Shown here in pieces: positions 22,861 to 34,761 of a stretch of DNA of 64,000 bases. The notes under the pieces are model-generated. The model searched no databases, was not told the origin of the DNA, and saw nothing but the letters and a program-made list of their open reading frames with translations. Source of the stretch: Rhizophagus irregularis (Eukaryota > Glomeromycota > Glomeromycetes > Glomerales > Glomeraceae); NCBI RefSeq assembly GCF_026210795.1, contig NC_089433.1, forward strand, positions 3,311,001-3,375,000, written 5' to 3'. Positions within the stretch are counted from its first letter, which is position 1, and every line of letters starts with the position of its first letter. Made by a program: the position numbers and the translations under genes.

Positions 22861-23625
22861 TGTTACCGAATGATGACGGTAATTAAGAGACGAATGGCGA
22901 ATGACTTATACCGTATATCTACACGGATACCAACGAAATTCTTACTCAATACTACCTATCCAAAGGTATTTCCAGTATTGTTCGTTAAGAATCGTCAAGG
23001 TAAACAACTATAAAATACGATAAATGGTAATACGCGATAATGTATAAGATAAATCTTATATAGAATAATGTAAAATAACCAAACGTAACAATTTTATTTC
23101 TTAAAAGACACTTTCGGTCTACAATAAAACGAATAAAGGTGATAGGGGAATTTTCTCAAGAACAACTATATAGGTCACTGTTCTATTATGGAGTTGGTAG
23201 AGGCGTATTTATATCTTACTGCCATCTTTTTTTTTCTAATAATCAAAGGCGAAATCTAATCTATAGATGTCTAATCGTTAATGTTTCATCACAATATCAC
23301 AATAGCGATAATTTTTATTGTAAGCCACTTTTAAATAGAACACAATTGATAATTTTGGACAATTAATACTATTGAACTAATTCTCACACAATTATCTTCT
23401 AATAAATTCTAATAAAATTGTATACATATAAACAATACAAATAAAGAAAATAAATAATATAACTAATAATAAATAAATAAATTGAATAAATTAAATAAAT
23501 ATAAAAACGATATATAAGTAAATTTATCATATAAAATCAATATCTTTAATATAGTTAACTGATATACACAAATCTGCAACTATACATCGGCGTAAATCGT
23601 CTCGTAACATCGGAAATCGACGTGT
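22861..23625. mobile_element. Solo-LTR-like element, left part
   Basis: Starts TGTTACCGAATG immediately after ATTG (22857-22860), inside the coding exon of kinase BC. Its other end, GTAACA, is at 34833-34838 and is followed by ATTG (34839-34842). TG...CA termini with a TGTTAC/GTAACA inverted end and a 4-bp target duplication fit a solo LTR of about 838 bp. It is interrupted by the Ty3 element at 23626-34761. No coding capacity. Confidence 0.7.
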
Positions 23626-24232
23626 TGTAACGCCTAAGCCCGTGATAAATCACGTTGCCACCTTAGGTATTAACAAAATATCTCTTTATTAATAATATAA
23701 ATAAATACAATAATATGCTTGGTTTAATAACATTAAATAACTAATAAATAATTCATTATCGAAATTCGTCCAAGAATAATGTCCTTCTCAAAAGGTGATC
23801 TTCACGCCCTTTTATATTTGTTTTCGTGTAACCAAAAATTCATAATTTCGGTTCATGGATTTAAATTATCAAAGTATTTCCATTATTTCAAAGTATTTCC
23901 ATCATCTTAATTCTGTATCCATTTGATCATCGTGACCTCCTGAATTATGATTTATAATACTAACGTAATGATCAGCAAATTAGTCACCTGACACCTCAGA
24001 TCACTTGACTTCATTTAATTTAGTATCTTTCGGATCTTTATTTATCCTTAAATGTGACTGATAGTTTAATGTCATCTCGGACCAATTATCCTTGAATCAC
24101 CTGATCAATAGTTTAACGACTTTTCGGTCTAACTAAAAAAAATAAAAATAAACTAAAATTTTATATACTAAGATTAAATATAATACTGCGCCTCACAATT
24201 AATAAATTTACTATGTATACTACGGCATTACA
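23626..24232 (-). repeat. 3' LTR of the Ty3 element
   Basis: 607 bp. In element orientation it runs from TGTAATGCC to GGCGTTACA. Identical by eye to 34155-34761. Confidence 0.93.
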
Positions 24233-24244
24233 ACTATCCCCCGC
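24233..24244 (-). other. Polypurine tract
   Basis: In element orientation GCGGGGGATAGT lies directly before the 3' LTR, as expected for the plus-strand DNA primer site. Confidence 0.7.
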
Positions 24245-24269
24245 ATGAAAATTTAATGCCCTCATTAAA

Positions 24270-24554: not shown

Positions 24555-26336
24555 TCATTTACTCATCGGTGTATGGTAAGTCTTTAATAGTTCTCCATTT
24601 ACAGGTGTTTTCTTGATTACACCCTTAATATCTTTAATTTTGTAGGCTCCGTTTGGTAGTATTTCATGAATGTAAAATGGTCCCAACCATTTTGATTCCA
24701 ATTTTCCAGATAATTGTTGTGCTTTGGCCTTATCATAAAGTAATATTTTATCTCCAATTCCAAAGGTATGTTCTTTAATTATTTTTCTGTCATGATACTC
24801 TTTTTGTTTTATTTGAGATTTTAATATTTGTTCTTTGGCTTCATATCGGATTTTTGGTAATTCTTCTAATAATCCAACTATTCTATCACTTAGGTTGATT
24901 CCTTTGATATCTTCATCCATTATTGTCCGTACATTTCTTCCATATGTTAGATAAAATGGTCGAATTTTTGTTGAACTATGCTTTTTATTTCGGTAAGCAA
25001 ATAATATGGGTGCTATCCTTTGATCCCAATCATCTTTGGTTGATAATTTTGCTAATGCTTGACCTAATGTTCGGTTGAATCTTTCAACAAGTCCGTTTGT
25101 CTCTGGATGATAACTTGTAGAAAAATTCCATTTAATTTTGAATTTTTCCATTAATTCCTTAATCATTTCATTATTGAAATGACTTCCTCTATCACTCAAT
25201 ATTTTCATAGGACATCCATGTCTACAAATGATGTCTTCATAAATAAATTTTGATACTTCTTTGGCAGTTGCTTCTTTTACTGCTTTGGCTTCTGGCCATT
25301 TTGTAAAATAATCCATTGCTACTATGATGTATTTATTACCATTTGTTGTTGTGTTCAATGGTCCAACAAAGTCAATCCCGATTTGATACCATGGTTCTAC
25401 TACTTTAATTGGGTGTAATTCATTTTTCCCTTGTGGTTTTCCTCTTCTTTGACATTCATCACATGTCCTTACATATCTTTCAACATCATTCAGCATATTT
25501 TCCCAATAATATTTATCTTTCAAATTATCATAAGTACTTTTGATTCCCATATGTGCCAATAATTCATGACTGTGAGCTAAATATAGTGCTCCCATCTTTT
25601 CAAAATCTTCTATTATTCTGATGTTTTTACCATTTTTCTCAATATGCTTTTTACCATCAGTTACTCTGATGTTATCCTTAATCTCAACATTTTTAACCTC
25701 TATTGGTGGTTTATCTCCATCTAATTCTATTACTTTATTATATACTCTTTCCCAATCTGTGTCATTATTTGATATTTTAATATTAGCATATTTTTCTCCT
25801 TCGTAAATATCTTGACATTCTTTAAATGATTTCACCATCTCCATATATCTTTCTTCATCTAATAATGGGTATGATGTTTTATGTCCTTGATCCTTTTTCG
25901 AATATTCTCTACCTTTGTAATTTTCCCAACATTTTTCATTTTCTAAAAATATCACTATTGATTCATCAATTATCCTTTTGTTCCTAAATACTTCCTTTTC
26001 TAATAGGTGGTTCTCATATCTTGTTATGTATCCTCTGTCGAATGATGGTGTTTGTTGATAAAAGTACTCACTATAGGGACTTTTATCTAATATTAACCAA
26101 TCCTCATTATCATGTTCTTCCATTCTCCTGTTGATTTGTTTGACAACTTCCTTCCTGAATTCCCATTCTATACCTTTCTTTGGTATTTTATACTTATCAT
26201 TGTCCTCTCTTCTCCTTTTAAAGGTGTTAAACCTCACACTTTGTCCTACTTTTTCAAATTCTTTTATAAGTTTATTTACAATGAATGTTTTTCCAGTACC
26301 ATCAACTCCACATATGATTATTATTTTAGGTCCCAT
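24555..26336 (-). CDS. Deoxynucleotide-kinase-like domain fused to Ty3 integrase
   Basis: 593 aa. Residues 1 to about 205 look like a thymidylate/deoxynucleoside-monophosphate kinase: P-loop GVDGTGKT at about 10-17, a central Arg-containing EFRKEVVKQI, the LDKSPYSEYFYQQ segment in the position of the DR(Y/S)xxS..YQ motif, and a charged lid-like region with KGREYSKKDQ. Residues about 245-300 form the integrase HHCC zinc domain (HELLAHMG ... CDECQRRG). Then the rve core has all three acidic residues: D in IGIDFVGPL, D in ILSDRGSHF, E in GLVERFNR. A GPF/Y module (WLGPFYIHEIL) follows; no chromodomain is seen. The ATG lies only about 9 codons before the P-loop, as expected for a genuine kinase N-terminus, and overlaps the stop of an upstream linker frame. 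The kinase could supply dNTPs during reverse transcription (inference); it may be separated from integrase by the element's protease. Confidence 0.85.
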   Translation of the reverse strand: MGPKIIIICGVDGTGKTFIVNKLIKEFEKVGQSVRFNTFKRRREDNDKYKIPKKGIEWEFRKEVVKQINRRMEEHDNEDWLILDKSPYSEYFYQQTPSFDRGYITRYENHLLEKEVFRNKRIIDESIVIFLENEKCWENYKGREYSKKDQGHKTSYPLLDEERYMEMVKSFKECQDIYEGEKYANIKISNNDTDWERVYNKVIELDGDKPPIEVKNVEIKDNIRVTDGKKHIEKNGKNIRIIEDFEKMGALYLAHSHELLAHMGIKSTYDNLKDKYYWENMLNDVERYVRTCDECQRRGKPQGKNELHPIKVVEPWYQIGIDFVGPLNTTTNGNKYIIVAMDYFTKWPEAKAVKEATAKEVSKFIYEDIICRHGCPMKILSDRGSHFNNEMIKELMEKFKIKWNFSTSYHPETNGLVERFNRTLGQALAKLSTKDDWDQRIAPILFAYRNKKHSSTKIRPFYLTYGRNVRTIMDEDIKGINLSDRIVGLLEELPKIRYEAKEQILKSQIKQKEYHDRKIIKEHTFGIGDKILLYDKAKAQQLSGKLESKWLGPFYIHEILPNGAYKIKDIKGVIKKTPVNGELLKTYHTPMSK

Positions 26337-26602
26337 TTTTACATAATTCTGATAATTTTAGCCTGTTTATTTTACTTAATATCACCTCTATTTGTAATAT
26401 TTCCTCTTGGGTTTCCAAAATTAGTGGTCTTTCCTTACTATCCTCAAAATTTTCGGCTTTGTATTTATAGTTATAATTTATCCTGTTTAATTCCTTTGTT
26501 ATACCTTCTAAATTTTCGATTATATCCTTTATTTTTATGATTTGTATTTCTTACCACTTGTTCCATTTTTATTTTTGAAAAGTAACTCTTTTACCCATCT
26601 AT
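26337..26602 (-). other. Coding-like linker between RNase H and the kinase-integrase ORF
   Basis: Protein-like sequence continues in other frames: RWVKELLFKN directly after the RNase H stop, then a charged coiled-coil-like stretch IIENLEGITKELNRI ... EEILQIEVILSKI, ending in a TAA that overlaps the next ATG. The polyprotein was probably continuous in an ancestor, or these frames are joined by recoding. Confidence 0.5.
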
Positions 26603-28084
26603 TTATATTATTCTTGATAAGGCATCTGCGTTTTTATTTTCTTTTCCTGGTCTATGGGTTATTTCAAAATCATACTGTTCCAATTCCATGACCCATCTTG
26701 ATCTCTTTCCTTTTGGTACTTTTGCAGTCATTAATCCCTTCAAAGCTGCATGGTCTGTTACTACCTCAAATTTTCTATTGATCAAGTATTTATGGAAGTG
26801 TTGTATTCCCCATACAATTGCATAACATTCTTGTTCGGTTATTGGCCATCTTTGTTCTGTCCTGTTTAAACTTTTACTGGCATATTCTATTACGTATTCT
26901 TGACCTTTATCATCTTTTTGAGCTAATACTGCCCCTAATCCTATTCCTGAAGCATCTGTAATTAATATAAATTTCCTTAACCAATCTGGTTGTCTTAACA
27001 CCGGTTCTTCGGTTAATTTCCTTTTTAATATTTCTAATGCTTCATGTTGTTTGATGCCCCATTCAAACTTTTCATCTTTTCTCAATAAAGATGTTATTGG
27101 TTTTACTATTTTTGAAAAATCTTTAATAAATTTTCTATAATACGTACATAACCCCAATATTGACCTTACACCTTTTATATTTATAGGTGCTGTTAATTTT
27201 TGTATCTTTTCAACCTTTCCTGGACTTGGTTTTAATCCATTTTTACCAACTACATGTCCTAAAAATTCTATTTCTGTTTTTCCAAATATACATTTCTTTA
27301 ATTTTAGTATTAAACTGGCTTCCTTTAATTTTTCTAACACTAACTTTATGTGTTTTAGGTGGTCTTCAAAATTTTCCGAATATATCATTATATCATCAAT
27401 GTATACTATCACAAATTCATTTAGGTACTCCTTTAATACTTTATCCATTAACCTTTGAAAACTTGCAAGCGCATTTGTTAACCCAAATGGCATGACATTA
27501 TATTCATATAATCCTGCTGAGCATATGAATGCTGTTTTCTCAATATCTTCCTCAGCCATTTCTATCTGATTAAACCCTGATGCTAAATCTAGACTGGTAA
27601 ACCATTTTCCTGAACTTATCCTTTCTAATTGTTCATCAATCCTTGGTAATGGATATGCATCTGTTATTGTAACTTTATTTAATTTTCTATAGTCGATGCA
27701 AAATCTATAATTTCCCGACTTTTTCCCTACTAAAGTCACTGGTGAAGACCATGGACTTCTAGATTCTCTAATTTTTCCCATTTTTAACATTTCTTCAACC
27801 TCTTTTCTGATGAATTTACCTTTTTCATCATTTTCTTTGTACCTCTTTTGGGCTATTAGTTCAGTACCCCCTTTTAATCTGATTTCATGTTTTACTAGGT
27901 TTGTCCTATTATATTTTTCACCATCGTACTCAAATATATCCTTATATTTTTCTACTAATACCTTTAATTTACCTTTTTGTTCATTGGTTATGTCCCCTAC
28001 TTTAAATTTTTCAGTAAATTTTTCATGGTCACTTTTGTGCTTCTTTATCGTCTCTTCAGTATCATTCTGACCAAGACTTATACT
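26603..28084 (-). CDS. Reverse transcriptase - RNase H (Ty3/gypsy pol)
   Basis: The frame is open from 28084 to TAA at 26603-26605, 493 codons; the first Met (27790) is internal, so translation probably enters from protease by frameshift. RT motifs are present: SPWSSPVTLVGKK, FRIDYRKLN-type FCIDYRKLNKVT, LDLASGFNQIE, MPFGLTNA and the catalytic YIDDIMIYS. The connection has FLGHVVGKNGLKPSP. RNase H has ILITDASGIGLGAVLAQ, the ITEQECYAIVW glutamate, and a VVTDHAALKGL aspartate, ending KNADALSRII. All key catalytic residues look intact. Relative to protease the frame is -1, and the window between the two stops is only a few codons (28087-28078). Downstream protein-like sequence continues in a different frame. 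Confidence 0.9.
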   Translation of the reverse strand, partial: SISLGQNDTEETIKKHKSDHEKFTEKFKVGDITNEQKGKLKVLVEKYKDIFEYDGEKYNRTNLVKHEIRLKGGTELIAQKRYKENDEKGKFIRKEVEEMLKMGKIRESRSPWSSPVTLVGKKSGNYRFCIDYRKLNKVTITDAYPLPRIDEQLERISSGKWFTSLDLASGFNQIEMAEEDIEKTAFICSAGLYEYNVMPFGLTNALASFQRLMDKVLKEYLNEFVIVYIDDIMIYSENFEDHLKHIKLVLEKLKEASLILKLKKCIFGKTEIEFLGHVVGKNGLKPSPGKVEKIQKLTAPINIKGVRSILGLCTYYRKFIKDFSKIVKPITSLLRKDEKFEWGIKQHEALEILKRKLTEEPVLRQPDWLRKFILITDASGIGLGAVLAQKDDKGQEYVIEYASKSLNRTEQRWPITEQECYAIVWGIQHFHKYLINRKFEVVTDHAALKGLMTAKVPKGKRSRWVMELEQYDFEITHRPGKENKNADALSRII

Positions 28085-29162
28085 TTAAAATTTTCATCTT
28101 CCTGACCTTCATGGTCATCTTCATATATGTTATACAATTCATCCTGGTATAATTCTTCTAATATTTCCTCTTCATCAAATGTTTCTTCAAACCCTTTAAT
28201 GGTCCTTTGTGTGTATTTTACTGGTATATCCATAGTTTCATCATTCATTCTAATTATTATTGTTTTATCTGTGTAATCTATATTTGCTTTGAATATATCT
28301 AATACTCCATTTCCTAACACAATTTCGTTTTTTCCTGAATCAATTACTTCAACCTTAATGGGTATTTCCTTATCCCCAAATTGTATGTATATTGTCGTGG
28401 TACCCCTAGATGTAAACATGGGTATCGAAACTCCTAAGAGCATTTCCGAATGTTTCGGGTTTCGGTATATACGAATCGAAACTCAACCCATAACCTAAAC
28501 TTCTACCGAAACTCGAAACAACTTCCGATATTCCGAAACCTATCCCGATATCCCGAAACCAGCATTACCCAATTAAATTGCTTAAACAACTGTGCCATAC
28601 GTCATATTGATGAAATCACGTGCTCAATAATCATCAAGAAATTCATAATACCCGACGCTATGTGAGGATTGAGGAATATAATGGAGTGAACAAATTCTAC
28701 CCTAATAGTTATATAGTTAATTTGGATTTAATGTTAGGAATAATTTAATAGTGAACAAACTATTAGAAATTGAACTTGATACCTTTATTTAAGATTTACT
28801 GTAAGGAAAACTAATAAAAATTTTGGGCATATTTCGGTTTCGGGTTGGGATTCGGGAATCGGAAAAATATATGCATTTCCGAAACTCTATTTCGTATATA
28901 CCGAAACCGATAGAGTTTCGGGAAGTTTCGGTTTCGTTACCCATGTTTACCTAGATGTTAATTTATCCTCATTTATCATCACGCATCTTACTGTACTTGG
29001 TTCCTCAATTTTTAGGTCCATTTCATCCATTATCTGACTAGTTATTACATTTACTGCTGCTCCTGTATCAAACATTACGTCCTTTAATTCTTGGTTTATT
29101 ATTAATTTACCCCTTAATGCAGTTAAGTGTTCTGCTTCAATGTTATTCATTGATTCTTGTAG
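28078..29162 (-). pseudogene. Retroviral-type aspartic protease, split by a hAT-like MITE
   Basis: The upstream part (29150-28950) follows gag in the same frame and holds the catalytic VMFDTGAAVNVI (DTG type). The downstream part (28412-28078) encodes TTTIYIQFGDKEIPIKVEV and the second-lobe-like NEIVLGNGVLDIF, followed by an acidic tail. A 537-bp element plus an 8-bp target duplication sits between them. The 545 bp are exactly the interval separating the two in-register halves, so the insertion is the only lesion here. As present the protease would be truncated shortly after LTSR. Confidence 0.8.
28413..28949. mobile_element. hAT-like MITE inserted in protease (537 bp)
   Basis: Terminal inverted repeats TAAACATGGGTA.CGAAAC, and an 8-bp target duplication CCTAGATG at 28405-28412 and 28950-28957. 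The inner ends carry TTTCGGTTTCGG-like repeats; the middle is AT-rich without coding capacity. An 8-bp duplication and short TIRs are typical of hAT-derived non-autonomous elements. Confidence 0.8.
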
Positions 29163-29165
29163 TCA
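29151..29165 (-). promoter_or_regulatory. Candidate gag stop-codon readthrough site (UGA CUA)
   Basis: Gag ends ...ACA GAT TGA, followed in the same frame by CTA CAA GAA TCA and the protease ATG. UGA-CUA is a stop context known to promote readthrough in several viruses and eukaryotic genes. The in-frame continuation into protease makes programmed readthrough a good explanation. Confidence 0.55.
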
Positions 29166-32100
29166 ATCTGTTTGTGGATACCTTCTCATTCCTTCATAAT
29201 ATATTTTTCTTTGCTCCGGACTCGTGTTTATAATTTGTGCAAAGGTTGTATTTGCTCTGGTATTTTTCAGATCCTCCACTACGTTATATCCTGGTATATT
29301 TCTCAGAAATGCACTTGTCCTATGGATACCTTCAACACGTTCATTTTTACATTGTTTTGCATAGTGACCTCTTTGTCCACAATTTCCGCATGTATTATTA
29401 TTTCTTCTTACTTCTTGTGCCTTCCTCAGACTTTCATCAGTGAATCCTCTTTTTGGTAATGCTGCTGCCCTTTCCTCTTGGCTTGCATATTTATTATTCC
29501 TTCTTCGTATTTGTTCTTGGTCAATTTCCATATCTATATCTCGATTACTTGACCTATTTTTTATGTTACTTCTCGTCTGTCTTTCACCGGTATAAAAATC
29601 TTGATCAACATGATTAAATGTTACATCATTATCTTGATAATACGGGTCGTCATAACTATATCCTTGATCATAATTATCCTGATAATCCTGACTATCATAA
29701 TCATATTGGTCATATTGGTCATTATAATTATCATATTCCACTACATTGAATCTTCGATTATTGTTTTGGTGGTTTGGTGGTCTGTTATAGTTATTTGGTC
29801 TTCCATTATAGTTATTTGATCTTCTATTATAATTTTGATTATTTGGTCTTCCATAGTTTCTTTGACCATTATTTACCCTACATTCATTTGCATAATGTCC
29901 TGGTTGTTTACAATTGTAACATGCTCGAGGTGGTGGTCCTTGTCTATTATTATTGTTTGGTGGTCTCTTTTGCCCTCCAAGTTGATTTACTAGTTTTACC
30001 TCTAATTTTTTAAACATGTCGGCAAGGTCATCCTCATAATTTTTCTCCAATGGTTTTTCAAATATATTCTTTGGCTTGTCATCTTGTATATCGATTCCTT
30101 TTCTTTGGGTACTAACTGATATACCACGTGTCTTTCTTATTAATTCATTAGTAGCTTCCTCCTCTCTTCTTGCTGTATTCACTGCATCATTTAAATTTGC
30201 TGGGTTTTGTCTTCTGACTTGATATCCCAATGTTGGTGTTAATCCTTCGATATAATTATCCACTTGTAATTCATCATCTAATGCATGGCCTCTGGTAGCT
30301 ATCCTTAATATTTGTCTAAACCTTATCGTATATGCCTCAACATTTTCATTTACTCCTTGTGTTATTTTCCTTAATTCTAACATTTTCCTTTTTCTAACAT
30401 CCTCTCTGGTAAATCTTTGTTTAACTCTATGTTTCAAATCATTATCATCATCATTGTCTGCCCAATTTACTAAATGTCCATTATTTGCTTCCTTCTTTTC
30501 ATTATACCATTGTGCTGCTGCACCTTTCAAACAGGTAGCTGCCATTGCTGCTTGTCTAGCTCCATTTACTCCTGCTGCTTTTCCTATGGCAGTAAATGCT
30601 GTTTCAAATTGTCTTACCCAATCATTAACATCTTCTTCTTCTTTTCCATAAAAGTGTGGCAAACTAATTATTCCTCCAGCTGCGTTTCCTGCATCCTCAA
30701 TTGCATTTGCTAATGGGTTGGCTGCGATTAATCCAGCCCAATTACCTCCTATATCATGTCCTGTTGTTGCTAGTAAAGCCGCTCTAACATCTTCCCTTAC
30801 TTCAGCTCTTGTTGCTCCCATAATTATTGGTACTATTGGTGGGATTGGTGGTATCGGTGGTGTTAAAGGTGTTTCAAATAAATTTTCTATATTATAATCA
30901 GATATTTCACTTTTATCCTCAGAATTTGATTCTGAACTTTCACTTGAGTCAAAACCGGGTCTATTTATAATGTTTTCTTCATAAGGTTCTTCAAAATTTT
31001 CATTGCTATCAGTATCATTTGGATTTAAAATTTCTCCATTTTTTTCAGATCCATCTGATTCTTTTTCAGATCCATCAGATTTTTCGTTATCAGATTCATT
31101 TCCACTGTTTTCACTATCCTCAATTCCAGCTTGCTGTTTTAGAAATTTATCTAATATTCGCCTTAAATTTTTCTCCATTTCATTTTTATTTCCTTGGAAT
31201 ATTTCAATAAATTCTTGATCCAATATTTCTCCATCAGTATATCCCATACTGATTAACCTCAATAACTCTCCATTAGTTATTTCTATTTTATTATCATCAC
31301 ATATTTGTTTTAATCTTTTGACCCTGATATCAATTTCATTCTCGTCATTCTCACAATCCCTACACTTGGTTTTTCCTTCGTCAAATTTATTGTTCATCCA
31401 TCTTATTCCACATTCATTACAAAATGTGGTATTTCCATTTATCCATTCATATAATTTTGTCCTTAATTCTTTGTCATTCGTATCCATTTCCTGGAAATAT
31501 TTTTCCATAAATTCCGTTGTTAATATCATACTATTGCTTATCCTGAATTTTCTTATTCTCTCTATTTCTGACACATTTAATTCGTATCCTAGTTTTTCTA
31601 AGTCATCCTTTAATTTTAATAATTCTTTTTGTTCACAATTTTTACATTGCCCAATGTCTGTTATCATATCAGGTAACTTTCTATTCCTACAATTTCCACA
31701 TATTAATGTTTCTTTTGTTAACCATTCATTTATTTCATCTTTTAATTTTTCATCACTTAGTCTCATTAATTCGAAAAATGTACCTAAAAAGTCTTCTGTT
31801 AATATCAATTCTATTCTTATCCTTAGGTCCCACATTCTTTGTATATCCTTGTCAGTGAACCTTCCACCCATTTCTTCAATTTTTCTTTTTAATGATTCCA
31901 CTGTCCATTCGACATCATCCTCTATTTTTACTTCATAATGTATACTACCATCACTGTCCTCTAGTTCATAACTTTCAGGACTATCACTTTCTGGGTCCTC
32001 AGGTTCCCTTGTAAATTGTTTGGTGTCAATAAATCTTTGTCTTACTTTCTGTATCAATCTCTTCCATGCATCCTTTCCTTCTTGAGTGTCTGCCTCACAT

Positions 32101-32750
32101 CTATTCTGATGTTCTATCTGGAGTAACAATTCAATTACCTTTTCTCCCCTCACCAGATCTTCTGTTTCTTCATATAATAAATCCCTGAATAACTTTATTG
32201 CTAACTTCTTAACATGTATTGCTTTCATTTCATTTTCCAATATCGTGTTGTACCAATCCCAAAACTTTTGAAATCTATTTTCAACATCCCAATCTTCTAA
32301 AATGTATCCATGTTCCATTATTTCTGGACATCCAATTAACCGATCAAATACTTCATTTTCTAAGTCTCCTTCAATACAATCCCTTACAATTACTACAATT
32401 ATTATCCTTAAACCTTTTTCTTTCATTTTTGGTTGTTGTCTGTACCTTATTGATTCAATTATTCTATCTACTATATTCCTACATTTTCCTTTATGTATTG
32501 TGTCTTCCCTTTCTCTATTGTCCATACTTAATAAATTCAATAATTCTTTATGTGTTACATTATTGTACATTAGTATTGTATCCTCAAATTTAAATAAAGC
32601 ATCCCAAAATTTCTTGAATGCTGTTGATACTTCTCTTTCTATTGGATTACATATTTCACATGCTAAGCATTCCTCTGGTTCTATCACTCCTAGGTCATGT
32701 TCTTGTTTATGGTTTATATATCCAGCGTTCCAAACATGGTACCATTCCAT
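29163..32750 (-). CDS. Gag polyprotein of the Ty3 element, long N-terminal extension
   Basis: 1,195 aa, starting MEWYHVWNAG at 32750. Residues 1 to about 270 hold a CLACEIC motif and helical sequence (KKFWDALFKFED) that I associate with gag-like proteins of glomeromycotan elements. Residues about 285-530 contain three diverged tandem repeats, two with zinc ribbons (CGNC...CKNC and CNECG...CRDC). An acidic Ser/Asn linker and a PPIPPI proline run follow. The retrotransposon gag domain lies at about 695-860 (FETAFTAIGKA, AAQWYNEKKE, VEAYTIRFRQIL, YIEGLTP). Two CCHC knuckles follow: CYNCKQPGHYANEC near 955 and CGNCGQRGHYAKQC near 1125, separated by an Asn/Tyr/Asp-rich region. It assembles the particle and binds RNA. 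It ends at UGA, with protease in frame. Confidence 0.92.
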   Translation of the reverse strand: MEWYHVWNAGYINHKQEHDLGVIEPEECLACEICNPIEREVSTAFKKFWDALFKFEDTILMYNNVTHKELLNLLSMDNREREDTIHKGKCRNIVDRIIESIRYRQQPKMKEKGLRIIIVVIVRDCIEGDLENEVFDRLIGCPEIMEHGYILEDWDVENRFQKFWDWYNTILENEMKAIHVKKLAIKLFRDLLYEETEDLVRGEKVIELLLQIEHQNRCEADTQEGKDAWKRLIQKVRQRFIDTKQFTREPEDPESDSPESYELEDSDGSIHYEVKIEDDVEWTVESLKRKIEEMGGRFTDKDIQRMWDLRIRIELILTEDFLGTFFELMRLSDEKLKDEINEWLTKETLICGNCRNRKLPDMITDIGQCKNCEQKELLKLKDDLEKLGYELNVSEIERIRKFRISNSMILTTEFMEKYFQEMDTNDKELRTKLYEWINGNTTFCNECGIRWMNNKFDEGKTKCRDCENDENEIDIRVKRLKQICDDNKIEITNGELLRLISMGYTDGEILDQEFIEIFQGNKNEMEKNLRRILDKFLKQQAGIEDSENSGNESDNEKSDGSEKESDGSEKNGEILNPNDTDSNENFEEPYEENIINRPGFDSSESSESNSEDKSEISDYNIENLFETPLTPPIPPIPPIVPIIMGATRAEVREDVRAALLATTGHDIGGNWAGLIAANPLANAIEDAGNAAGGIISLPHFYGKEEEDVNDWVRQFETAFTAIGKAAGVNGARQAAMAATCLKGAAAQWYNEKKEANNGHLVNWADNDDDNDLKHRVKQRFTREDVRKRKMLELRKITQGVNENVEAYTIRFRQILRIATRGHALDDELQVDNYIEGLTPTLGYQVRRQNPANLNDAVNTARREEEATNELIRKTRGISVSTQRKGIDIQDDKPKNIFEKPLEKNYEDDLADMFKKLEVKLVNQLGGQKRPPNNNNRQGPPPRACYNCKQPGHYANECRVNNGQRNYGRPNNQNYNRRSNNYNGRPNNYNRPPNHQNNNRRFNVVEYDNYNDQYDQYDYDSQDYQDNYDQGYSYDDPYYQDNDVTFNHVDQDFYTGERQTRSNIKNRSSNRDIDMEIDQEQIRRRNNKYASQEERAAALPKRGFTDESLRKAQEVRRNNNTCGNCGQRGHYAKQCKNERVEGIHRTSAFLRNIPGYNVVEDLKNTRANTTFAQIINTSPEQRKIYYEGMRRYPQTD

Positions 32751-33278
32751 TTTTAATAAAATTCTCTAAAAATTTTCACATCTTTTACTTTTTATCCTTC
32801 TTTTATATTTTATTTGACCTATACTGGGCTTGCCTTTACCTCATTTGTTCATTACTGAGTATGGTAGTTTACAGGTTTGTACAAATAAATTTATATTCCA
32901 TAAAATTTTCCAACCTAAGGTTGAAGTGTGAATCCATATTTGATTTGTCCGATTATTTGTTGTATTTCCAAGACTGATGTATCTTTCCTCGGTGTCAACA
33001 ATTCATTTAATAAGTGGGAGATTCAAATCTCCCTCTTTCATATGCTCCTACTACGCCTCTAATTCTATTATATCCTAAAATTTACTGTGCTTTGATAATC
33101 TTTAATTAATAATCTCGACACCTGTATTGACATTTTATATAATTTTACTACGCTACAAAATCTCTTATCATCTATATCCTTATTAATTTTTAATAACTTT
33201 CCTTGAATATATTTGTCCAGCAAACATTATTTTAATTTTTGTTAACGTTAATCATGATTTTTCTTGGGTACCCTCACA
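32751..33278 (-). other. Untranslated leader of the Ty3 element, gag-proximal part
   Basis: AT-rich sequence between the repeat block and the gag ATG. No coding frame with recognisable features in element orientation. Confidence 0.5.
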
Positions 33279-33570
33279 CAGAATTGTTTTTGGAAGTTCA
33301 CACAGAACTATTCTCAATTGATCACACAGAATACCTCAATTGAGTTCACACAGAAAAAGCTCACACAGAACTATTCTCAATTGATCACACAGAAAACCTC
33401 AATTGAGTTCACACAGAATTATTCTCAATTGATCACACAGAAAACCTCAATTGAGTTCACACAGAATTATTCTCAATTGATCACACAGAAAACCTCAATT
33501 GAGTTCACACAGAATTATTCTCAATTGATCACACAGAAAACCTCAATTGAGTTCACACAGAATTACCCTA
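33279..33570 (-). repeat. 48-bp tandem repeats in the retrotransposon leader
   Basis: About five full or partial copies of a 48-bp unit built from TTCACACAGAA, CTCAATTGA, TCACACAGAA and CCTCAATTGAG. Each unit carries two CAATTG palindromes and two CACACAGAA words. It lies in the untranslated leader between the primer-binding site and gag. Confidence 0.85.
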
Positions 33571-34039
33571 CCATCGTATTTATAGTGTCGGTTTTTGGGT
33601 ACACTTTTTATCCTTAACTTAACCTCAATTATTTATAAAAATTATTTTTAATCCTTAATTCATGGAACTTATTTACAATATTCTATTAAAACCCCTTCTA
33701 ACTTGATTAGCCTCGCATTTCCCTTGATAATCAATTACTACCATACATATTTGGTTCATATGTATGAAAATTATTATAATAATAATTTTTCATTGACTTA
33801 TCAGCCGGTGGTCAAGTTAGATCAAAAATTTAATTTTTAACATTATCTCTTTATACATTTATGGTCATACTCACCCAAATTAATGCCTTTTACCTTGGTA
33901 ACCATTATTTTCACGTATCCTTTAAAATATTTAACTTTATTTTATTAAAATTTAACGTTAATACGCCTTAAATTCTTTTTTAACCAAGACTTAGAACTTT
34001 TAATTTTATAATTCCTTAACTTCGTCGATCCTTTATTTG

Positions 34040-34136: not shown

Positions 34137-34152
34137 CTCGGAGCATGCACCA
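34137..34152 (-). other. Primer-binding site
   Basis: Two bases after the 5' LTR (element orientation) comes TGGTGCATGCTCCGAG, complementary to a tRNA 3' end CTCGGAGCATGCACCA. The implied tRNA has acceptor 5' strand GCATGCT, which is found in the tRNA-Gly-like remnant at 24270-24337. Confidence 0.75.
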
Positions 34153-34154
34153 CT

Positions 34155-34761
34155 TGTAACGCCTAAGCCCGTGATAAATCACGTTGCCACCTTAGGTATT
34201 AACAAAATATCTCTTTATTAATAATATAAATAAATACAATAATATGCTTGGTTTAATAACATTAAATAACTAATAAATAATTCATTATCGAAATTCGTCC
34301 AAGAATAATGTCCTTCTCAAAAGGTGATCTTCACGCCCTTTTATATTTGTTTTCGTGTAACCAAAAATTCATAATTTCGGTTCATGGATTTAAATTATCA
34401 AAGTATTTCCATTATTTCAAAGTATTTCCATCATCTTAATTCTGTATCCATTTGATCATCGTGACCTCCTGAATTATGATTTATAATACTAACGTAATGA
34501 TCAGCAAATTAGTCACCTGACACCTCAGATCACTTGACTTCATTTAATTTAGTATCTTTCGGATCTTTATTTATCCTTAAATGTGACTGATAGTTTAATG
34601 TCATCTCGGACCAATTATCCTTGAATCACCTGATCAATAGTTTAACGACTTTTCGGTCTAACTAAAAAAAATAAAAATAAACTAAAATTTTATATACTAA
34701 GATTAAATATAATACTGCGCCTCACAATTAATAAATTTACTATGTATACTACGGCATTACA
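34155..34761 (-). repeat. 5' LTR of the Ty3 element
   Basis: 607 bp, identical by eye to 23626-24232. Carries the promoter and polyadenylation functions of the element by analogy with other LTRs. Followed by the GTGT target duplication. Confidence 0.93.

Follow-up and report, generated by a model that had tools for sequence, protein, structure and literature searches.

Origin of the question

Retroelements rely on dNTPs from their host, and some are known to carry a nucleotide enzyme, dUTPase. In a 64,000-nucleotide stretch of the Rhizophagus irregularis genome (hereafter the window), a frame coding for an integrase begins with a domain that resembles a nucleotide kinase. A sequence-only reading had proposed that a Ty3/gypsy retrotransposon carries its own enzyme here to raise the dNTP supply for reverse transcription. 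We asked whether this domain is a kinase, of which kind, and what a retrotransposon would do with it.

The kinase-like domain is part of a Ty3/gypsy element

The joined P-loop and integrase frame was confirmed. It lies on the minus strand, begins with an ATG at 26336 and ends at 24555 (593 aa); counted from the preceding stop, the open frame covers 24555-26357(-) and has 600 codons. The motifs GVDGTGKT and LDKSPYSEYFYQQ, on which the kinase proposal had been built, are both present. Residues 1-208 (25713..26336, minus strand) form the kinase-like domain, which contains the P-loop GVDGTGKT, LDKSPYSEYFYQ and a lid-like GREYSKKDQ, and is matched over residues 3-195 by the phrog_761 thymidylate kinase profile (1.7e-12). 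The integrase follows in the same frame (24555..25712, minus strand). It is a complete HHCC-DDE-GPF/Y integrase, with Pfam matches to Integrase_H2C2 (2.1e-17, residues 258-306) and rve (8.8e-11, residues 325-418) and, by eye, the DDE residues (IGIDFVGP, LSDRGSHF, NGLVERFN) and a GPF/Y-like segment KWLGPFYIHEILPNGAYKIKD.

This is the last coding frame of a minus-strand LTR retrotransposon with a 5' LTR at 34155..34761 and a 3' LTR at 23626..24232. The LTRs are identical at 607/607 positions in a comparison run on 34154-34760 versus 23625-24231; the TG...CA ends lie, by eye, one base further. ACAC at both outer ends of the element (at 23622-23625, adjoining the 3' LTR, and also before the 5' LTR) represents a 4-bp target repeat. 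The element has thus inserted recently. A primer-binding-site-like TGGTGCATGCTCC (34140..34152, minus strand) is found by eye 2 nt inward of the 5' LTR, and a purine-rich tract TGCGGGGGATAGT (24233..24245, minus strand), likewise seen by eye, lies ahead of the 3' LTR. The gag frame has 1200 codons from stop to stop (29163..32765, minus strand), with Retrotrans_gag at residues 741-843 and CCHC knuckles (Pfam). The protease region follows (28078..29162, minus strand) and was recognized by the motif DTGAAVNVI alone, which lies in frame past the gag TGA; a Pfam protease match is absent from the 3' part of this region in the window copy. RT and RNase H share a frame of 493 codons (26603..28084, minus strand; RVT_1 4.8e-40, RT_RNaseH 3.1e-36). 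LTRs, gag and the pol order PR-RT-RNase H-IN identify a Ty3/gypsy element, with PR broken in the window copy. This copy is thus damaged, since an insert at about 28414-28950 interrupts the protease region.

The insert of ~537 bp (28406-28958 with flanks) has inverted ends TAAACATGGGTA / TACCCATGTTTA and 8-bp repeats ACATCTAG, and looks like a small hAT-type element. The gag stop TGA is followed by CTA (29160-29165), which we take to be a leaky-stop context, and the protease reading carries on in the same frame. Just ahead of the protease-frame stop, AAATTTTAAA (28078-28093) is a possible frameshift site; the RT frame is offset by one base. A gag leader of ~700 residues with repeated CxxC...CxxC segments precedes Retrotrans_gag (window 30650-32765), and the 5' leader of the element holds 48-bp tandem repeats (33247-33597).

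The kinase is found in many copies and in five element families

Residues 1-215 of the 600-codon frame, used as query, returned 22 proteins that are 53-99% identical. Pfam domains of RT, RNase H or integrase are carried by 21 of them, and in the remaining one, P0016, inspection by eye shows an RNase H end. When 11 kinase domains, which share 53-62% identity with that of the window, were made into a profile, it matched 102 proteins. The organisms named among the kinase matches are R. irregularis, R. clarus and Glomus cerebriforme; two proteins that are 98-99% identical to the window kinase (P0001 and P0002) come from R. irregularis. In the own genome (146.7 Mb, 32 contigs) two kinase queries gave at least 151 matches each, fragments included. 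In the table of one query, 130 of 151 rows cover at least 190 of 208 residues, and 122 of these 130 are without stop. These numbers rule out a one-off chimaera, and the same joined frame recurs in other copies and species. All 37 integrase-only rows counted in the own genome have a kinase row alongside, a result that weighs less because the candidates were picked with the whole query, which favors this outcome.

We distinguish the family of the window (F1) and four others, F2 to F5, seen through the loci L042, L071, L040 and L035, respectively. The kinase sits between RNase H and integrase in all five. That it leads the integrase ORF holds for F1, where kinase and integrase form one 600-codon frame and RNase H is closed by a stop. 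It does not hold for the representatives of F2-F5, in which the RT-RNase H frame runs on through the kinase and stops there; their integrase has a frame to itself, with an ATG close to the beginning. In the F3 element L071, a further frame of 118 codons lies between kinase and integrase (L071 1162-1518, minus strand).

In F1 a small frame precedes the kinase. It has 79 codons in 20/30 copies, with its stop overlapping the kinase ATG, and 87 codons in one copy; in the window copy, where the stretch between RNase H and kinase covers 26337..26566 (minus strand), the frame from the small-frame ATG closes after 31 codons. The kinase ATG lies in phase 0, 1 and 2 relative to the RNase H stop in 4, 20 and 4 of 28 readable F1 copies, the kinase is stop-free in 30/30, and in one copy, L024, the kinase ATG is replaced by ACG. 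The mixed phases, together with the stop-free kinase, make translation from an own AUG more likely than a programmed frameshift that would carry translation on from RNase H to the kinase; the phase counts render such a frameshift unlikely. Copies with an odd phase may be dead. The small frame resembles the RNase H-kinase linker of other families weakly, with 28% identity over 45 residues for P0005 (E 1e-4, in a set of three); the linkers of P0013 and P0053 gave no real match.

Active-site residues and profile matches point to a nucleotide kinase

Residue conservation was analyzed in 64 stop-free copies (67 loci minus L033 and L038, which have stops, and L037, which is the same place as L030). 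Invariant residues occupy 72 positions in this set, whose loci are best matches to a query, so that intact copies are favored. Among them are Gly10, Val11, Asp12, Gly13, Lys16, Asn37, Arg43, Glu57, Trp58, Phe60, Arg61, Asp84, Lys85, Ser86, Pro87, Gln94 and Arg143 (64/64 each). The P-loop pattern GxxGxGK[ST] is preserved, with Lys16 and Thr/Ser17 in 64/64 and Gly15 in 63/64 copies; the sister copies have thus not lost it. Such a loss would, according to the sequence-only reading, have refuted its proposal. The basic stretch K40-R43 is kept residue by residue in 63, 63, 61 and 64 of 64 copies. Thymidylate kinases have an Arg in their DR(Y/H) motif. The element copies read Asp84-Lys85-Ser86 at this place in 64/64. 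Hence the claim that the domain has exactly the motifs of thymidylate and related kinases goes too far; the P-loop part stands, but the Arg is a Lys throughout and the window copy reaches 21.2 bits against the Thymidylate_kin cut-off of 27 bits.

Searched alone, the window domain matched the Pfam families AAA_28 (1.3e-5) and Thymidylate_kin (2.6e-4), both below the curated cut-offs, and among NCBIfam models it scored best with an unnamed kinase-like family rather than with the dTMP kinase family TIGR00041. All 11 kinase domains matched Thymidylate_kin (PF02223, best 2.4e-8), TIGR00041 (best 3.7e-8, far below its cut-off) and phrog_761 'thymidylate kinase' (best 1.5e-15); the latter was also matched by 53/55 proteins (best 4.3e-17). 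With E limited to 0.01, more of these proteins match Thymidylate_kin (45/55) than any other Pfam family, and many general P-loop families come close to this number. L035 with its neighbors passes the PF02223 cut-off at 28.4 bits, and P0010 and P0013 carry PF02223 among their precomputed domains. Annotation software can see the domain, as some database entries are already auto-named 'thymidylate kinase'. Matches in a profile search of the PDB were mostly short and of P-loop size (FtsY, TMPK, adenylate kinase). Mere P-loop similarity was rejected as an account of the domain, since the phrog_761 match spans residues 3-195. The predicted relationship to nucleotide or deoxynucleoside kinases is therefore borne out by significant matches. 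In phages, tblastn found no match for the window kinase (E up to 0.01) or the P0003 kinase (E up to 10), and 101 pattern matches in viral contigs included no relative. These collections thus hold no close phage or virus relative, a result compatible with an old viral origin.

The same data bear on the idea that the domain is a derived P-loop protein which has given up making nucleotides and binds ATP and/or nucleic acid via the basic stretch (residues 40-43) and aids RT, integrase or particle assembly. Such a role would fit the change from DR to DK in every copy, the loss of the Glu typical of deoxynucleoside kinases (see below), the largely invariant basic residues and the place adjoining the integrase. 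However, P-loop, Asp84 and the lid Arg143 are all retained, and the best profile matches are nucleotide kinases. We consider this role rather unlikely.

The element kinase forms a lineage beside thymidylate and deoxynucleoside kinases

A profile of the element kinases gave its highest scores, among the sequences compared, with the chromosomal deoxynucleoside kinase (dNK) of the host and its orthologues (PF01712; L072, P0123-P0127; 30.9-45.3 bits), while scores were 1.5-11.2 bits for six thymidylate kinases (TMPKs) and at most 8.6 bits for 3,386 scored shuffles. With hhalign, 97.3% was obtained versus Glomeraceae dNKs and 94.5% versus a small TMPK set. Furthermore, an FKEP..Y segment is common to element kinases and host dNK. 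The element might thus encode a functional deoxynucleoside kinase, a captured and diverged salvage enzyme that phosphorylates deoxynucleosides for reverse transcription. Several results argue against this. Deoxynucleoside kinases have a catalytic Glu after strand 2. The invariant Asn37 (64/64) aligns with the place of this Glu, in an alignment that here joins distant sequences. Pfam dNK was matched by only 5/11 domains (E up to 0.1; best 3.4e-4), and the dNK of Drosophila scored -0.1 bits with the element profile. In a tree built from 19 sequences (185 columns) the host dNK groups with other dNKs (96.9/97), TMPKs stand apart (99.3/100) and the elements form a third group; a forced grouping of elements and host dNK is worse by 10.7 log units (AU p = 0.06) and hence disfavored. 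We regard a functional deoxynucleoside kinase as improbable.

The likeness to thymidylate kinases (PF02223, TIGR00041, phrog_761) lies in the P-loop GxDGxGKT, the Asp of the DR motif, the lid Arg and the best family matches. The elements differ from them in reading DK instead of DR and in scores that mostly stay below curated cut-offs. A recent capture of the host thymidylate kinase was rejected, because that protein reaches only 10.9 bits with the element profile. Judged by these comparisons, the element kinase belongs with thymidylate and deoxynucleoside kinases as a lineage of its own. The substrate may be already phosphorylated, as the missing Glu and the invariant basic residues near its place suggest.

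The chromosomal dNK gene of the fungus lies at L072 1285-2295 (minus strand; PF01712 1.2e-31) and has relatives in R. clarus and Glomus cerebriforme. A second host thymidylate-kinase-like gene with a degenerate P-loop (LEGCEDTNTTLQ) is located at L031 1501-1959; the ordinary one is at L032.

The kinase is under purifying selection and traded as a cassette

The kinase domain is under purifying selection. Its pooled pN/pS amounts to 0.119 in F1 and 0.074 in F2 (29 copies each, no stop in any). For the integrase it is 0.085 and 0.080, respectively, with copies carrying stops kept (7/29 in F1, 4/21 in F2), and it is 0.036 for RNase H in F1 and 0.038 for RT-RH in F2. Copies with less than 80% of a domain were left out (kept: F1 RNase H 27/29, F2 RT-RH 22/29, F2 integrase 21/29). 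Measured against the older copy L030, values are 0.178 for the kinase, 0.092 for the integrase and 0.038 for RNase H, and constraint on the kinase is therefore looser than that on the core enzymes. Between families, kinase pN/pS is 0.143 (F2-F3), 0.152 (F4-F5) and 0.402 (F1-F2), with high dS.

The F3 element L071 is 90% identical to the F5 element L035 in RT, 89% in RNase H and 87% in integrase. Its kinase is 65% identical to that of F5 and 87-89% identical to those of F2. In a 120-nt sliding window on L071, similarity to F5 drops from 88-89% to 75-78% past RNase H; similarity to F2 is 88-92% across most of the kinase and low on both flanks. P0011 and P0019 reveal the same pattern, with 94% for RNase H and 74% for the kinase. 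These similarity profiles indicate that the kinase has been swapped as a cassette between element families, and the swapped kinases remain open reading frames.

That the kinase is a passenger, a host sequence copied along with the element and without function for it, could find support in the 97-99% likeness of most copies of the window's family, recent copies that alone say little on this point, but is highly improbable and already contradicted by pN/pS well below 1 within and between families, by the 53-62% identity that the 11 domains keep with that of the window, by invariant active-site columns, and by swapped kinases that stay open; it would need constraint on RNA rather than protein.

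Discussion

Our comparisons show that a Ty3-type LTR lineage in Glomeraceae carries, between RNase H and integrase, a selected P-loop domain that by sequence is a kinase of the thymidylate/deoxynucleoside superfamily. The part of the sequence-only reading that places such a module in Ty3 pol thus holds, for numerous copies from several families of elements and from three named species have it, with the P-loop intact.

For its role, we give an even chance to a dNMP-type kinase carried by the element to feed reverse transcription. The kinase would most likely ride with RT and integrase in the particle of the element, in the window's family probably as a kinase-integrase protein made from its own AUG. 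It would phosphorylate a deoxynucleoside monophosphate, e.g., dTMP, near RT. We propose that the dNDPs so supplied locally would give RT more precursors of dNTPs for making cDNA at times when the dNTPs of the host run short. This reading draws on the matches of all 11 domains to thymidylate or dTMP kinase in three libraries, the conserved place in pol, purifying selection, the invariant active-site residues, the cassette swaps that leave the kinase intact, and the dUTPase precedents in lentiviruses and fungal Ty3 elements. Against it speak that the window copy stays below every curated cut-off seen, that the DR Arg is Lys throughout, that general P-loop families match too, that the nearest relatives by profile score are host dNKs and not TMPKs, and that constraint is weaker than on RNase H and, versus L030, than on the integrase. 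In yeast, according to excerpts of one study, raised dNTPs increased Ty1 mobility, which was ascribed to recombination and not to more cDNA, and hydroxyurea lowered Ty1 mobility (PMC3002893). The Ty1 mobility result counts against a simple version of dNTP supply. The fuller picture, in which Ty3 elements of arbuscular mycorrhizal fungi trade as a cassette a particle-borne deoxynucleotide kinase of its own lineage beside TMPK and dNK, placed between RNase H and integrase, and in which nucleotide supply is selected in the element, we put forward tentatively, at a little short of even chances.

A conserved enzyme domain at the RNase H/integrase junction is seen in the window, L035, L040, L042 and L071, as well as in proteins returned with residues 1-215 as query. 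Non-primate lentiviruses carry a dUTPase between RNase H and integrase in pol, as excerpts of two papers describe (PMC4531489, PMC12789967). The likeness is that of an enzyme of nucleotide metabolism at the same place. Fold and reaction differ; dUTPase makes dUMP, and the step of a kinase would come later in the pathway. Lentiviral pol forms a single frame, while that of the Glomeraceae elements is split. Ty3 elements of fungi (Postia placenta and others) have captured a dUTPase, which excerpts of PMC2864245 place at either terminus of Pol or between PR and RT, and not between RNase H and integrase. Orchid Ty3 elements, again from excerpts, also have an added enzyme domain, but this is an m6A demethylase in an additional frame (PMC9289625). 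A literature search in one open-access library found no description of a retrotransposon-borne thymidylate or nucleotide kinase. Excerpts of two papers on R. irregularis transposons (PMC8647823, PMC11075540) and of a survey of fungal LTR elements (PMC3248453) mention no such kinase domain.

The idea of nucleotide supply is testable, as it concerns one domain of ~205 aa with many natural alleles and natural cassette swaps. A selected kinase at the pol site of dUTPase would mean that the supply of nucleotides by retroelements themselves has evolved anew through another reaction, and this in a fungus of broad ecological importance.
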